49,005 nucleotides of DNA from an uncultured Lachnospiraceae bacterium. Lineage in GTDB: Bacteria; Bacillota; Clostridia; Lachnospirales; Lachnospiraceae. The stretch lies in NCBI GenBank assembly GCA_947626965.1, contig CANQUH010000009.1, forward strand, positions 1-49,005. The letters are read 5' to 3'. Position numbers and translations under genes: made by a program. Each line of letters begins with the position of its first letter. Within the stretch, counting starts at the first letter, position 1. Shown here one piece after another: positions 4,871 to 44,745 of this stretch. Under the pieces are notes generated by a model. That model saw only the letters and a program-made list of their open reading frames with translations, did not search any database and had not been told where the DNA came from.

Positions 4871-4896
4871 TATGCGCAGGCCCGCACATGGAAATA
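4871..4896 (+). repeat. Family 1 hairpin repeat, single terminal unit
   Basis: TATGCGCAGGCCCGCACATGG followed by AAAT begins at the last T of the T-box terminator tract. It matches the terminal partial units at 27959 and 22275. Only the left half of the hairpin is present here. It lies in the 5' untranslated region of tyrS. Confidence 0.75.
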
Positions 4897-6238: not shown

Positions 6239-7099
6239 TTGCGGGATCAGGCAGATGGAAAGGAAAACAGAAATAAAAACAAAAACGGGAGAACGGAGAA
6301 AGACAGGGAGAGCGGAAATAAAAACAGCGGAAAATTTCCTGTTTCCTTTATAGAGACCGGGAAGGATGTTGTAAAATCGGTGGTATTCTGGTGTGCCGCT
6401 GTGTCGATTGCGGCCTCGGCCTGTCATATTGCAGGGGATGTGACCGCCTCTTTTGTGAAAAGCAGGGAAGCAGGGGAGGCGGAAGCTGTCCTGTCAGAAG
6501 GCGGAACCGCAGAAAAGGCGGATTTTGTTCCGGCGGAACCACTGAAAAAGACCGTCGCTCTGACGTTTGACGACGGCCCGCATCCCACCTACACAAAAAA
6601 GCTCCTGGATGGTCTGCTGGAGCGCGGTGTGAAAGCCACGTTTTTTGTGATAGGAGAAAATATTCCAGGGAATGAGGATCTGATCGCGCGGATGGAGGAG
6701 GAAGGCCATCTGATCGGAAATCACACATATGATCATGTGAAAATATGTGATATGAAAAAGGAGGATGCCTGCTATCAGGTGGAGCAGACAAGCGCCCTGG
6801 TGCGGGAGATTACCGGGCATGATACGGAATTTGTGAGACCTCCGTTCGGCGCGTGGAATCCGGATCTGGAATGCAGCTTTGTGATGATCCCTGTTTTGTG
6901 GGATGTTGACCCGCTTGACTGGACGACTTCAAATACGTCTCTGGTTGTGCAGAGAGTTGTTGAGGATGCGGACGATCAGGATATCATACTTCTGCATGAT
7001 TTTTATGAGTCGTCCGTGGACGCGGCATTGCAGATCATAGACATACTGAAAGAAGAAGGATTTGAATTTGTGACGGTGGATAAACTGATTCTGCCGTGA
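6239..7099 (+). CDS. Membrane-anchored polysaccharide deacetylase (NodB domain)
   Basis: Metal-dependent carbohydrate esterase family 4 protein, probably a peptidoglycan N-acetylglucosamine deacetylase. A basic N-terminal tail of ~43 residues is followed by one membrane segment (~residues 46-68) and an extracellular NodB domain. The catalytic motifs are all present: TFDDG (D111/D112), HTYDH (H162 and H166 as metal ligands), RPPFG, DVDPLDW and LLHD. The only start covering the membrane anchor is TTG at 6239, with GCGGGTGA just upstream, so the exact start is uncertain. Copies of its 3' end are tandemly repeated downstream at 7129-7240. Confidence 0.88.
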   Translation: MRDQADGKENRNKNKNGRTEKDRESGNKNSGKFPVSFIETGKDVVKSVVFWCAAVSIAASACHIAGDVTASFVKSREAGEAEAVLSEGGTAEKADFVPAEPLKKTVALTFDDGPHPTYTKKLLDGLLERGVKATFFVIGENIPGNEDLIARMEEEGHLIGNHTYDHVKICDMKKEDACYQVEQTSALVREITGHDTEFVRPPFGAWNPDLECSFVMIPVLWDVDPLDWTTSNTSLVVQRVVEDADDQDIILLHDFYESSVDAALQIIDILKEEGFEFVTVDKLILP

Positions 7100-7240
7100 G
7101 AATCTGGTTTCTGAGTGGGAGAGAAATAAGAAGAAAGAGGATCTGGGTTCGTGACGGCGGATAAGCTGATTCTGCCGTGAGGGGCTGATTCCTGTGCAGG
7201 GAACAGAAAAGAAATTTGTTTGTGACGATGAAGAGATGAA
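7048..7240 (+). repeat. Decayed 81-bp tandem duplication of the deacetylase 3' end
   Basis: The segment coding for EEGFEFVTVDKLILP plus stop (7048-7128) recurs 81 bases later (7129-7209) as a diverged copy still reading FVTADKLILP plus stop. A weaker third match covers about 7210-7240. Confidence 0.75.
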
Positions 7241-9525: not shown

Positions 9526-9580
9526 TATGCGCAGGCCCGTGTAAGGAAAATCGCAGGCATACATATGGAAATCCAGCGGA
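9526..9580 (+). repeat. Family 1 hairpin repeat, internally deleted copy
   Basis: Starts directly on the terminator T-tract with ATGCGCAGGCCCGTGTAAGG, as in the full copy at 44091. It then jumps to the right-end sequence TCGCAGGCATACATATGG. The central hairpin arms are missing, so it looks like a deletion derivative. Confidence 0.7.
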
Positions 9581-11919: not shown

Positions 11920-13155
11920 ATGAGAGATTTTCATGTGGGAAACAAAAGCGCCGGAGGATACGCGGGAAAAGACAGGGAACATGAGTGGAATCCGTATGTG
12001 GGAGAAGAAGAACCAATCGGGGGATGCTGTGGGAAGAGCTGTGGAGAAAGTATGGAAGGGAGCAGAGATTGCGGTTTTGTGAAAGTGCCGGAATTGAGCG
12101 AAGAGGAGCAGAGAGATATAAGAGGGTGGAGCAGCCGCCGGCCGGTGCCTCCGATACCAGTGCCGGAGCGGAAAAGCCAGCCGCCGCGGCGTCCGGAGCC
12201 GAATCGCCCAAAACCAATGCCAAAGCCAGTGCCAAAGCCGGAACCGGATCGTCCAAAACCAATGCCAAGGCCGGAACCGAACCGCCCAAAGCCAGAACCA
12301 GGATGGGGAGAGAGACCGCCGCAGCGCCCGGAGTCAAATCGTCCAAAGCCGGAGCCAGGATGGGGAGAAAGACCGCCGCGGCGTCCGGAGCCGAACCGTC
12401 CAAAGCCGGAGCCAGGATGGGTGGAGAGACCGCCGCGGCGTCCGGAGCCGAACCGTCCAAAGCCGGAACCAGGATGGGGAGAGAGACCGCCGCAGCGCCC
12501 GGAGTCAAATCGTCCAAAGTCAGAGCCAAGACCGGAGCCGAGATGGGGAAAATGGTCATCAGAGCGCCTGGTTTCGGAGCCTGGATGGGGGAATCAGGTG
12601 TTCAGACGGACCGTGTCGGAACCGGAATGGGGAATCTGGGAGGAGCGGTATGATCAGGCTGTGAGATCCCCATTTGATGCACGTTTCGTGGAGATGCGAA
12701 GGGATTTGGAATCGAAGATGTCTGCTGGCGCAGACCCGAATCTTGCACGCAAGACTCGCGAACGGGTCTTGAATGGGTATGATTATGAAGATATCATTGA
12801 GGAAGAACGGCAGATGGAAAAGGATCTGCGGATGCTTCAGTCAATGTATCCGGAAGCGGTTAAAAAAATTCTTCCCTGCGTCGAGGAGATCTGCGACAGG
12901 ATGGAATATGAGGGGAGCATGATGTTTGATGAGCATCCGGATAAAATCACGATACGTCGGCTGAGTGATGAGATTTATGAACAGACAGGTGATGTGTGGC
13001 CGGAAGAACCGGTACAGGAACCGGACGGGGTCATGTCCATGCAGTATCAGGGAGATGGAAGAGGCGCCCTCGGAGAACTGATTCAGATTCTTCTGCTTCA
13101 GGAAATGTATCATCGCAGGTGCCGCCATCACAGATGCCGGCCGCATATGTTCTGA
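11920..13155 (+). CDS. Proline-rich tandem-repeat protein, conserved C-terminal domain of unknown function
   Basis: A 411-residue protein. After a short Gly/Glu-rich head, residues ~75-205 carry five or six copies of a ~20-residue repeat (PEPNRPKPEPGWGERPPRR). Next comes a helical domain (ARKTRERVLNGYDYEDII ... CDRMEYEGSMMFDEHPDK) and a Cys/His/Arg-rich tail (YHRRCRHHRCRPHMF). There is no signal peptide. The domain feels like a family conserved in Lachnospiraceae, perhaps spore-coat related, but I cannot name it. The ATG at 11920 has AGGAG 5 bases upstream and is preferred over 11824. A 38-base nested palindrome lies inside the coding region at 12732-12769. Confidence 0.75.
   Translation: MRDFHVGNKSAGGYAGKDREHEWNPYVGEEEPIGGCCGKSCGESMEGSRDCGFVKVPELSEEEQRDIRGWSSRRPVPPIPVPERKSQPPRRPEPNRPKPMPKPVPKPEPDRPKPMPRPEPNRPKPEPGWGERPPQRPESNRPKPEPGWGERPPRRPEPNRPKPEPGWVERPPRRPEPNRPKPEPGWGERPPQRPESNRPKSEPRPEPRWGKWSSERLVSEPGWGNQVFRRTVSEPEWGIWEERYDQAVRSPFDARFVEMRRDLESKMSAGADPNLARKTRERVLNGYDYEDIIEEERQMEKDLRMLQSMYPEAVKKILPCVEEICDRMEYEGSMMFDEHPDKITIRRLSDEIYEQTGDVWPEEPVQEPDGVMSMQYQGDGRGALGELIQILLLQEMYHRRCRHHRCRPHMF
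12166..12540 (+). repeat. Tandem 60-bp coding repeats (Pro/Arg-rich)
   Basis: Units encoding RPEPNRPKPEPGWGERPP recur about every 60 bases with few changes. Units at 12280, 12340, 12400 and 12460 are especially alike. Such repeats usually vary in copy number between strains. Confidence 0.85.
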
Positions 13156-17383: not shown

Positions 17384-17420
17384 TGCCGCAGCTAATCTCC
17401 ATATGCGGGCCTGTGCATAA
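17384..17420 (-). repeat. Family 1 hairpin repeat, single unit (reverse orientation)
   Basis: On the minus strand it reads ATGCACAGGCCCGCATATGG then AGATTAGCTGC. It starts immediately after the T-tract of the terminator of the minus-strand cell-wall gene. Confidence 0.75.
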
Positions 17421-22061: not shown

Positions 22062-22134
22062 GCGCGATTAGCTCAGTTGGTAGAGCACCTGACTCTTAAT
22101 CAGGGTGTCCAGGGTTCGAGCCCCTGATCGCGCA
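22062..22134 (+). tRNA. tRNA-Lys (anticodon CTT)
   Basis: A complete 73-base cloverleaf without encoded CCA. The acceptor GCGCGAT (22062-22068) pairs with ATCGCGC (22127-22133), with discriminator A. D-arm is AGCTCAGTTGGTAGAGC. The anticodon loop CTCTTAA sits on a CCTGA/TCAGG stem, with anticodon CTT at 22095-22097. The T-arm contains GGTTCGAGCC. It has its own promoter and terminator, so it is a single-tRNA unit. Confidence 0.97.
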
Positions 22135-22185: not shown

Positions 22186-22345
22186 ATGCGCAGGCCTGCA
22201 TGTGGAAGTTAGCTGCTGGCGCAGCATGCAGGCCGCGCAGCGAGCAGGAAAGAAAACCGCCTCCTGCTCGATCACAGGCCCGCACATGGAAATCAGCTGC
22301 TGGCGCAGCATGCGGGGCCGTGCGGGAGAACAGGAGAGAAAAACT
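22185..22345 (+). repeat. Family 1 hairpin repeat array (two diverged units)
   Basis: TATGCG on the terminator T-tract is followed by unit 1 at 22191. Its outer stem is GGCCTGCAT/ATGCAGGCC, with inner GCTGC/GCAGC, then hairpin 2 GAGCAGGA/TCCTGCTC. Unit 2 starts 84 bases later at 22275 with outer stem GGCCCGCA/TGCGGGgCC and a decayed second hairpin. A family 2 element abuts the right end. Confidence 0.85.
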
Positions 22346-22347
22346 CG

Positions 22348-22398
22348 GGATTTCCGCACAAAACGTGCGGAAATCACCTCGAACTCGGTGGGTGTGAA
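22348..22398 (-). repeat. Family 2 palindromic repeat (inverted relative to 11182)
   Basis: GATTTCCGCAC (22349-22359) pairs perfectly with GTGCGGAAATC (22365-22375). The flank CACCTCGAACTCGGTGGGTGT matches the reverse complement of the 11182 copy. The inner stem differs but stays complementary. Confidence 0.75.
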
Positions 22399-27686: not shown

Positions 27687-27740
27687 AATGCGCTGAAACC
27701 TGTACAAATCAAATAAAAATCGGATCACAGGATCAGATAT

Positions 27741-27784
27741 AAAAGAATCCGGGACCTGAAGAAGGTTCCGGATTCTTACGTTTC
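27741..27784 (+). terminator. Terminator of the SleB-type gene
   Basis: AAGAATCCGGGACCT and AGGTTCCGGATTCTT form a long stem, followed by ACGTTTC and then the family 1 array. Confidence 0.8.
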
Positions 27785-27987
27785 TATGCGCAGGCCCGGG
27801 CAGGGAAACCAGCTGCTGACGCAGCACCCGGGCCGCGCGGGCGAGCAGGAGGAAAAGCCGCCTCCTACTCGATCAGGCCCGGGCAGGGAAACCAGCTGCT
27901 GACGCAGCACCCGGGCCGCGCGGGCGAGCAGGAGGAAAAGCCGCCTCCTACTCGATCACAGGCCCGCATATGGAAATCAGCTGCTTA
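27785..27987 (+). repeat. Family 1 hairpin repeat array (two identical 83-bp units plus terminal unit)
   Basis: After TATGCG come two identical 83-base units (27791-27873 and 27874-27956). The terminal partial CAGGCCCGCATATGG with AAATCAGCTGC follows at 27959-27984. Each full unit folds as hairpin 1 (outer GGCCCGGG/CCCGGGCC, inner GCTGC-TGAC-GCAGC) and hairpin 2 (GAGcAGGAGG/CCTCCTaCTC). The right end touches the stop codon of the convergent DUF4364 gene. Confidence 0.9.
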
Positions 27988-28497
27988 CAGAAGTGTTTTC
28001 ATGATATATTCATACAGAGGCTGGCATTCCCGGTTCCAGTTCAGACAAACCGCTTTTGCCTGCGCTTCATCAGGAACGCTGATTGTCAGATCGATCAAAT
28101 CCACATATTTTTCTTTTACAACACAATGAACAGAATATTCTCCTGCGGTATTTTTGTAATAATCTGCCTGGACGGAGACCTCATCTTTGAGCTTGATCTG
28201 ATTTTCCTTCATATACAGGTCAATCTCATTCAGAAAAGTTTTCGGGATACGGTTCTTAAAATAAAACAGAGTTTTTTCACCGGACGAGGTAAGGGAATAA
28301 TAGGATGTATTGCCCTTGGATTCCGTGTGCAGCAGATCTGATTCAGTCAGCTCGGAGAGAACGGTCTGCAGGGTAAAGTATGTCATATATTCTTTTCCGA
28401 GAATAAATTCCGAAATCTGGGCATTTGTAAGCGGAAACTGCACCTGGCGGAGCGTATAGAGTACAATTAATTTGTATATTGTAAGAGAGTCTGACAT
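27985..28497 (-). CDS. DUF4364 family winged-helix protein
   Basis: A 170-residue protein matching DUF4364 (PF14277). The N-terminal ~90 residues have a PadR/winged-helix-like pattern (LIVLYTLRQVQFPLTNAQISEF, TLQTVLSELTESDLL, YYSLTSSGEKTL). The remainder is an alpha/beta domain (EYSVHCVVKEKYVDLIDLTISVP). Function unknown; DNA binding is plausible from the fold. It overlaps the end of the radical SAM gene by 31 bases, with AGGAGG before the ATG, so the two are coupled. Confidence 0.85.
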   Translation of the reverse strand: MSDSLTIYKLIVLYTLRQVQFPLTNAQISEFILGKEYMTYFTLQTVLSELTESDLLHTESKGNTSYYSLTSSGEKTLFYFKNRIPKTFLNEIDLYMKENQIKLKDEVSVQADYYKNTAGEYSVHCVVKEKYVDLIDLTISVPDEAQAKAVCLNWNRECQPLYEYIMKTLL

Positions 28498-32761: not shown

Positions 32762-32880
32762 ATAAAAACCGGAGCTGACATTTGCGAAGCAGAAAAATCA
32801 GAACGGGAGGTCCGCAGGACAGAAAAACCGGAGCTGACATTTGCGAAGCGGAAATATCCGGAACCGGAATCTGCGGCACA
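32762..32880 (+). repeat. 59-bp tandem duplication between rmlB and rmlC
   Basis: AAAAACCGGAGCTGACATTT, continuing GCGAAGC, occurs at 32764 and again 59 bases later at 32823. The period is not a multiple of three, so it is not a coding repeat. It lengthens the intergenic spacer. Confidence 0.8.
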
Positions 32881-32905
32881 GAGAAAAGGGGGATCGATAT
32901 ATCAA

Positions 32906-44003: not shown

Positions 44004-44089
44004 ATGTCACAGGAAATTTCGCCCTGTGACACAAAAAGCCTCCGGCGGGATGCGCACGAGCGCGTGCATGGAAAATGCTATTCTTTGCT

Positions 44090-44206
44090 CTGCGCAGGCC
44101 CGTGTAAGGAAAACAGTTGCTGACGCAGCACACGGGCCGCGCGTGCGAGCAGGAGAAAAAACGTCTCCTGCCCGATCGCAGGTTTGCATATGGAAATTGG
44201 CTGCAG
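44090..44206 (+). repeat. Family 1 hairpin repeat (one full unit plus terminal unit)
   Basis: CTGCGCAGGCCCGTGT opens hairpin 1 (outer GGCCCGTGT/ACACGGGCC, inner GTTGC/GCAGC). Hairpin 2 is GAGCAGGAGA/TCTCCTGCcC. The terminal unit GCAGGTTTGCATATGG follows at 44178. Here the element lies ~90 bases beyond the srtB terminator and ends close to the convergent DUF2325 stop. Confidence 0.85.
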
Positions 44207-44232
44207 GCTCAGCGCAGCGTGCCCTGAATGTG

Positions 44233-44697: not shown

Positions 44698-44745
44698 TTG
44701 CTGCGTCAGCAGCTGATCTCCATATGCGGGCCTGCGCACTAATAG
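44698..44745 (-). repeat. Family 1 hairpin repeat, single unit (reverse orientation)
   Basis: On the minus strand: GTGCGCAGGCCCGCATATGG then AGATCAGCTGCTGACGCAGC. It lies just past the T-rich tail of the csp terminator and keeps only the inner stem of hairpin 1. Confidence 0.75.

Follow-up and report, generated by a model that had tools for sequence, protein, structure and literature searches.

Our own introns are thought to descend from self-splicing (group II) introns. The described systems closest to the repeat analyzed here are group IIC introns and the group III introns of Euglena chloroplasts. Group IIC introns are described as inserting at terminators without long exon pairing (PMC4424553) and as recognizing the 5′ splice site through a stem-loop (PMC7161350). 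The account of group III introns in PMC4424553 gives them a length of ∼90–120 nt, sometimes with domains I and VI alone and no domain V, and considers them dependent on a trans-acting RNA or protein. For a single Euglena chloroplast, the same source counts more than 150 introns of the group III or degenerate group II type.

The repeat, here called family 1, was analyzed in a stretch of 49,005 nucleotides (the window) from an uncultured Lachnospiraceae bacterium whose genome assembly, G000, consists of 413 contigs and is 89% complete. Like group IIC introns, the element mostly lies directly behind intrinsic terminators, is as a rule followed by C or T at position +1 and has a domain VI-like 3′ end. 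In contrast to the element, which is 85 nt long and starts with GCRCAG, the four introns that we compared are ∼1.9 kb, start with GTGCG, encode a reverse transcriptase (RT)/maturase and carry domain V before domain VI, none of which is found in the element. With Euglena group III introns the element shares its size, the retained domain VI-like end, the absence of domain V and the high number. However, group III introns are organellar and are spliced from mRNAs, whereas the elements are bacterial, intergenic and known from DNA sequence.

Each unit is ∼85 nt in length and consists of GCRCAG, a long hairpin 1 with an inner GCTGC/GCAGC stem, a central GCGC, hairpin 2 and a terminal CGAT; most covariance-model matches are 78–90 nt long. 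The region 27785–27987 holds two full units and a third that is truncated on the right, and across the window, both strands taken together, there are four full copies along with several that are truncated. The features are as follows.

27745–27787, plus strand: intrinsic terminator (arms 27745–27756 and 27764–27775) and T-rich stretch ending in TAT, the insertion target, from sequence; an orthologous terminator is present in relative G007.
27788–27873, plus strand: full unit 1, with hairpin 1 at 27788–27838, hairpin 2 at approximately 27842–27871 and 3′ end CGAT, from folding and the covariance model.
27874–27956, plus strand: full unit 2, stacked, starting CAGG right after CGAT without the terminator-side GCR.
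27957–27988, plus strand: third unit, right-truncated (nhmmer match).
22188–22272, plus strand: full unit 3′ of the terminator that follows a tRNA gene (22062–22134); G007 has a like terminator without the element.
22273–22344, plus strand: degenerate second unit, followed by a family 2 repeat; the nhmmer match stops at model position 71.
44092–44176, plus strand: full unit (covariance model and nhmmer).
44177–44215, plus strand: truncated stacked unit (nhmmer).
4874–4896, plus strand: truncated unit 3′ of a terminator; the orthologous copy in G007 is full length.
9529–9550, plus strand: truncated unit 3′ of a terminator (pattern search).
17387–17416, minus strand: truncated unit 3′ of a terminator (nhmmer).
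44698–44737, minus strand: truncated unit 3′ of a terminator (nhmmer).

The original prediction of a two-hairpin repeat with this architecture is borne out by sequence, by folding and by copies throughout the genome. It had named five full units, of which those at 22191, 27791, 27874 and 44092 stand while the one at 22275 does not, its nhmmer match ending at position 71 and its hairpin 2 being degenerate. The truncated copies at 4874, 9529, 17387–17416, 44698–44737 and 44177–44215 are additions to that list, and neither the flush position behind terminators nor the likeness of hairpin 2 to domain VI had been described. Three units (27788, 22188 and 44092) were folded as DNA and as RNA, 27788 on both strands, and all fold below every one of 200 dinucleotide shuffles (z −4.6 to −5.6). 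The repeat had also been thought to match no described family. Consistent with this, no Rfam family other than tRNA reached its gathering score in the window, and a search of 27700–28050 at E≤10 returned only matches far under the family cut-offs. We likewise found no such element in bacteria in the open-licence PMC literature searched.

To count copies, we searched the host genome with short patterns and with a covariance model. When 3 or fewer mismatches were allowed, a 25-nt pattern from the head was present in at least 80+75 places (155), and a 15-nt pattern from the tail, allowed at most 1 mismatch, in 54+58 (112 among the matches listed); both reversed controls gave 0+0. The covariance model, built from 32 units, scored 150 of 3941 candidates and gave at least 152 genome matches at E≤1. 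This search, suggested along with the original prediction, found further copies in the genome and in its relatives alike. At E≤1e-4, matches are present in 17 of 41 genomes: G000, 15 of the 24 other genomes of the same genus and one genome of another family. Within the genus, the number per genome ranges from 0 (9 of the 24) to at least 110 (G000, G006 and G007). The named carriers are metagenome-assembled genomes (MAGs) labelled uncultured Lachnospiraceae and the isolates Lapin-002, Lapin-003-2 and Lapin-023, whose names presumably refer to the rabbit gut. G031, from another family of the order, contains two diverged copies (L117 and L130), both 3′ of T-tracts, which reflect either old vertical inheritance or transfer. 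Among the plasmids searched there was one weak match, from Methylobacterium, and among the phages searched there was none.

The copies from relatives allowed the structure to be assessed by covariation. Across 104 matches (100 of them distinct sequences) in 13 relatives, 25 of the 29 pairs have changed on both sides, in an alignment that was fitted to the covariance model and leans toward its structure. Within this relatives' set 93.5% of cells pair, and 367 cells have changed on both sides, compared with 112 ± 8 in shuffles. When the structure was slid along the sequence, pairing dropped to 26–48% in the two alignment sets. RNAalifold, run on the alignment of 104 matches, predicted 19 pairs, of which 18 have changed on both sides. 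The excess is weaker in a smaller first set, where 6 pairs have changed on both sides, a number equalled by 38 of 500 shuffles. The parts that are mostly conserved are the GCRCA start, an RGGA-type loop, the central GCGC and the terminal CGAT (91 of 97 units). Changes on both sides at 25 of 29 pairs thus strongly support the earlier proposal that selection keeps the pairing rather than the sequence. Mismatches do not indicate which strand folds: in one set A·C cells outnumber G·T cells (200 vs 64), an imbalance driven by three subfamily positions, and genus-wide, with two pairs left out, G·T and A·C are found 64 and 56 times (p = 0.52).

The left end of the element is flush with the 3′ side of an intrinsic terminator, comprising a hairpin, a T-tract and mostly (A/G)T at the junction. 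A hairpin ending within 14 nt together with a T-rich edge precedes 88 of 124 terminator-side units; the same test succeeded at 131 of 2480 random positions (5.3%) and in 5 of 124 and 10 of 124 right flanks. In a stricter control, a stem was found before 595 of 2462 T-rich positions ending in AT (24%), compared with 89 of the 124 units (72%). With a few stacked rows counted in, 101 of 105 left flanks have T at position −1, and 82 of the 105 have A at position −2. On the other side, the base at +1 was scored as a pyrimidine in 71 of 73 cases by script; the remaining two, L036 and L114, are cases in which the scripted end was placed at a later GAT, and inspection by eye gives T for both. In other genomes +1 is a pyrimidine in 88 of 97 units, a set that overlaps the 73 and corresponds to the 104 model matches after removal of five partial matches and of two tandem copies of L288 that are nearly identical. 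Flank repeats indicative of a target duplication are no commoner than in a permutation, and none was seen at two empty sites. A candidate EBS1-type pairing between the RRGGA loop and the target was rejected, as the loop shows no covariation with target base −2 (56 cases against 59.8 expected, n = 118).

The two empty sites come from comparison of G000 with its relatives (^ marks the junction). At the first, G006 reads TTTTAT^T without a unit where G000 has one, and the right junction is exact to about 1 base. At the second, G007 reads TTTTTTGT^C without a unit where G000 has one, and only the left junction is clear, the right end being degenerate. These empty sites show that (A/G)T is already present in the target and that the leading G is part of the element. 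The bidirectional terminator next to 27786 is shared with G006, where an element lies behind its other face, on the opposite strand. The terminator at 22186 recurs unchanged in G007, with no element behind it. At another site, G007 has one unit more than G000, and the extra unit lies on the terminator side of the old unit that both share. The element is mobile, as had been proposed in calling it a non-autonomous mobile element: relatives that share a site do not all have it there, and its insertion behavior is directly visible in these comparisons.

These comparisons also bear on whether the repeat is instead a domesticated structured RNA, or a terminator back-up serving a host function, that moved only in the past. 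Strong covariation and a position behind terminators would both be expected of such an RNA. However, relatives differ in presence at the same terminator, either strand is used, truncation is tolerated, and numbers run from 0 to at least 110 matches per genome within one genus, and we regard this explanation as very improbable. A structured RNA in the broader sense, also raised in the original prediction, may still apply.

Among 150 copies, 36 are intact on the left and truncated on the right compared with 3 truncated on the left (weak) and 2 others, although many of these loci were fetched with the head pattern, which favors left-intact copies, and some of the 36 reach position 81. Bottom-strand target-primed retroposition, a candidate drawn from this one-sided truncation, is weakened on two grounds: relative to its full-length ortholog in G007, the copy at 4874 arose by a later deletion of ∼206 nt, and retention of the terminator would by itself bias deletions rightward. 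We read truncation as decay during which the terminator is protected, given that the 4874 copy is a later deletion.

Units are frequently stacked, and the first G of the resident unit in a stack is usually gone. We recounted 31 stacked junctions by eye: 19 read GAT^CRCAG, in which the first G alone is lost, 2 read GAT^TACAG or GAT^TGCAG, 4 read CGAT^CAGG, 3 have a spacer and keep the G, and 3 are otherwise irregular. If the 3′ junction needs a pyrimidine, a new copy would join at the first pyrimidine of the resident, and its own first G would replace the old one.

Stacking is direct and not inverted, which speaks against the REP/BIME-like element that the original prediction had offered for comparison with RAYT transposases. 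REP, REPIN and BIME elements are, like this one, small, palindromic, high-copy and intergenic, and the tandem pairs would also suit a REP/BIME-type family served by a RAYT. REPs are defined by a GTAG or CGTC tag at one end and a length of 20–40 bp (PMC3733652), whereas our unit is ∼85 nt, has GCRCAG and CGAT as its two ends without either tag and follows another insertion rule. In addition, there is no RAYT among the three PF01797 matches in the 89% complete G000 assembly, which comprise one full-length IS200/IS605 TnpA and two broken pieces that resemble the same IS by eye. The proposed relationship is not supported, and a REP/BIME-type origin is extremely improbable.

The IS200/IS605 transposon itself suggests another source, in which the element is a MITE of such a Y1 transposon, moving as single-stranded DNA with hairpins at its ends and inserting 3′ of TTTAT or TTGAT, its CGAT end resembling the target. 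Palindromic MITEs derived from IS200/IS605 (presumably the elements called PATE-like) share with our element two end hairpins and the lack of a target duplication, and both the site, mostly, and the element end in AT. We searched G000 for Y1 genes, and the end hairpins of its one full TnpA/TnpB element (L009) differ from those of the repeat by eye. Nor would such a MITE be expected to obey the +1 pyrimidine rule, to cause loss of the first G on stacking or to match domain VI. Thus, a Y1-derived MITE seems unlikely.

By the criteria we tested, the element falls outside the group II introns. Its 85 nt form two helices, both of which are accounted for, leaving no domain V; no Rfam group II family reached its gathering score in the window or matched 27700–28050 at E≤10, and at this length there is no RT/maturase open reading frame. 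In place of GUGYG at the 5′ end, 118 of 124 terminator-side units have GCG or GCA before CAG, and GTG is found in 2. There is no bulged branch-point A, as an extra base stands opposite the A position and the A is usually paired or replaced: C-G accounts for 64 and C·A for 37 of 107 cases, and in the relatives' set U-A occurs 49, C-G 34, U-G 6 and C·A 7 times in 100. By sequence, no D1 is recognizable in the 5′ half, whose similarity to the four compared introns is not above that of shuffles.

The 3′ end gave a different result: the stem and 3′ strand of hairpin 2 match group II domain VI, and 96 of 97 units from relatives end in AT or AC (91 of them in CGAT), in agreement with the AY end of group II introns. 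The introns of G016 end in GAAAATCCGCCCTACTCGAT, and the same 20 terminal bases are found in 3 of 9 G016 elements. Likewise, the introns of G001 and G015 end in CCCCCTATCCGAT, as do 4 of 40 G001/G015 elements, the rarer CTATCCGAT type thus being present in introns and elements alike. Up to 17 terminal bases of the G014 intron are common to units of G000 and of G006/G007. We also matched six domain VI sequences to the elements of tabulated genomes with at least 4 elements, using all as the permutation pool. The domain VI of the own genome beat the pool in G016 (p = 0.0006, n = 9) and in G001/G015 (p = 0.0002, n = 40, with a small effect of 13.5 vs 11.4), kinship of the copies being ignored in both. 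For G014 elements the own intron gave no advantage over the pool (p = 0.96), and G000 elements are poorly matched by the domain VI of the intron found in G000. All 14 intron 3′ ends that could be read have C or T at +1, after CTACTCGAY or CTATCCGAT, and closely resemble the element ends. The introns found in the genus and the order begin with GTGCG. Introns L100, L101 and L105 sit 3′ of terminators, and L097 lies behind a family 2 palindrome; no terminator was seen in front of L099, L102 or L097.

The reading we prefer, and which we rate slightly above an even chance, is that the element is a non-autonomous miniature retroelement resembling a group II intron and mobilized in trans by group IIC machinery. 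The element works like a miniature group IIC intron that is put together like a group III intron. It would have been reduced to a 5′ hairpin and a domain-VI-like 3′ hairpin, and its RNA (or possibly folded DNA) would be taken for an intron, by way of the domain-VI-like end, by a group IIC RNP consisting of the intron-encoded RT and a catalytic core with domain V. The RNP may locate the terminator hairpin and T-tract in place of long exon pairing, as with group IIC introns. The 3′ end of the element would then be joined to a pyrimidine of the target DNA in a reaction resembling reverse splicing, with the +1 pyrimidine in the role of IBS3, and the RT would copy the element RNA into cDNA. Domain V would be supplied in trans, as is supposed for group III introns. 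A more specific version, which we hold tentatively and at somewhat less than an even chance, is that it may be a bacterial counterpart of Euglena group III introns: a parasite of group IIC introns that copies their 3′ splice-site domain, employs their RNP in trans and has reached ∼150 copies in single genomes by way of terminators. If so, the element would be a far smaller retromobile group II intron derivative than any we know of.

We infer trans-mobilization by group IIC machinery, and the distribution of candidate enzymes is the main evidence to be set against it. Among the high-copy genomes, G006 (82% complete) yields no RVT_1 match and G007 (96% complete) a single one that lacks a maturase domain; RF00029 gave one sub-threshold match in G006 and none in G007. 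The lack of a group II maturase in two high-copy genomes counts against trans-mobilization, and neither RF00029 nor RVT_1 presence tracks element copy number. MAG assembly may hide multi-copy introns in G006 and G007, although this is an excuse rather than evidence. RF00029 matches do lie at contig ends in G000 (C124, C208 and C223) and, for all four, in G016. The G000 group II intron (L097, L137, L144 and L150, on C124, C105, C223 and C208) encodes a maturase RT of 431 aa and has the domain VI end CTACTCGAC. Three of its four 3′ ends fall on contig edges, suggesting that an intron present in several copies was collapsed. G000 and G007 also encode RTs of 409 and 411 aa without a maturase domain (L098 on C20 and L108 on C92, respectively), which may be diversity-generating retroelements.

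The lack of an RVT_1 match in G006 would fit mobilization by an unrelated enzyme such as a recombinase, of the integron type or another, that works on folded single-stranded DNA, with the domain VI likeness a by-product of a shared CGAT-type end. The residual mismatches, which point to neither folding strand, fit this as well. Against it stand the up to 20 identical 3′-terminal bases within one genome and a target of the same type as that of group IIC introns, and we consider an unrelated enzyme improbable, rather more so than the Y1-derived MITE.

If the link to group II introns holds, the breakdown of introns into tiny trans-dependent elements, as in Euglena chloroplasts, would also be bacterial and testable there. 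Group II introns would then have a SINE-like partner, and the element would be a clean system for defining the minimal RNA that a group II RNP mobilizes and a living model of self-splicing introns decaying into small dependent RNAs, and it would account for many of the terminator-adjacent repeats in these genomes. Even without that link, this mobile family is uncharted, structurally covarying and high in copy number, and its target rule is unusually sharp.

Other repeats accompany family 1. Family 3, a second small palindromic repeat (TCACAGGAAATTTCGYCCTGTGA...), has 10 distinct copies in the DNA examined, at 44007–44029 in the window and at L024, L011, L043, L053, L061, L074, L086 and L181. 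Flush behind terminator T-tracts its junctions read TG^YCACAGG, with a leading G (4 of 4), and after family 1 units they read CGAT^TYACAGG, without the G (6 of 6); family 3 seems to use the same insertion system as family 1. Family 2, a third repeat (CTCGGGATTTCCGCAC..GTGCGGAAATCACCTCGA), has 8 distinct copies in the DNA examined, at 22344–22382 in the window and at L097, L073, L012, L189, L191, L086 and L211. Two of its copies follow truncated family 1 units, and the one at L097 has a group II intron just downstream. Elsewhere in the window, 12181–12555 consists of tandem 57-bp repeats that are 80–87% alike and probably coding, and short tandem duplications of 81 and 59 bp are found at 7050–7211 and 32764–32881, respectively.
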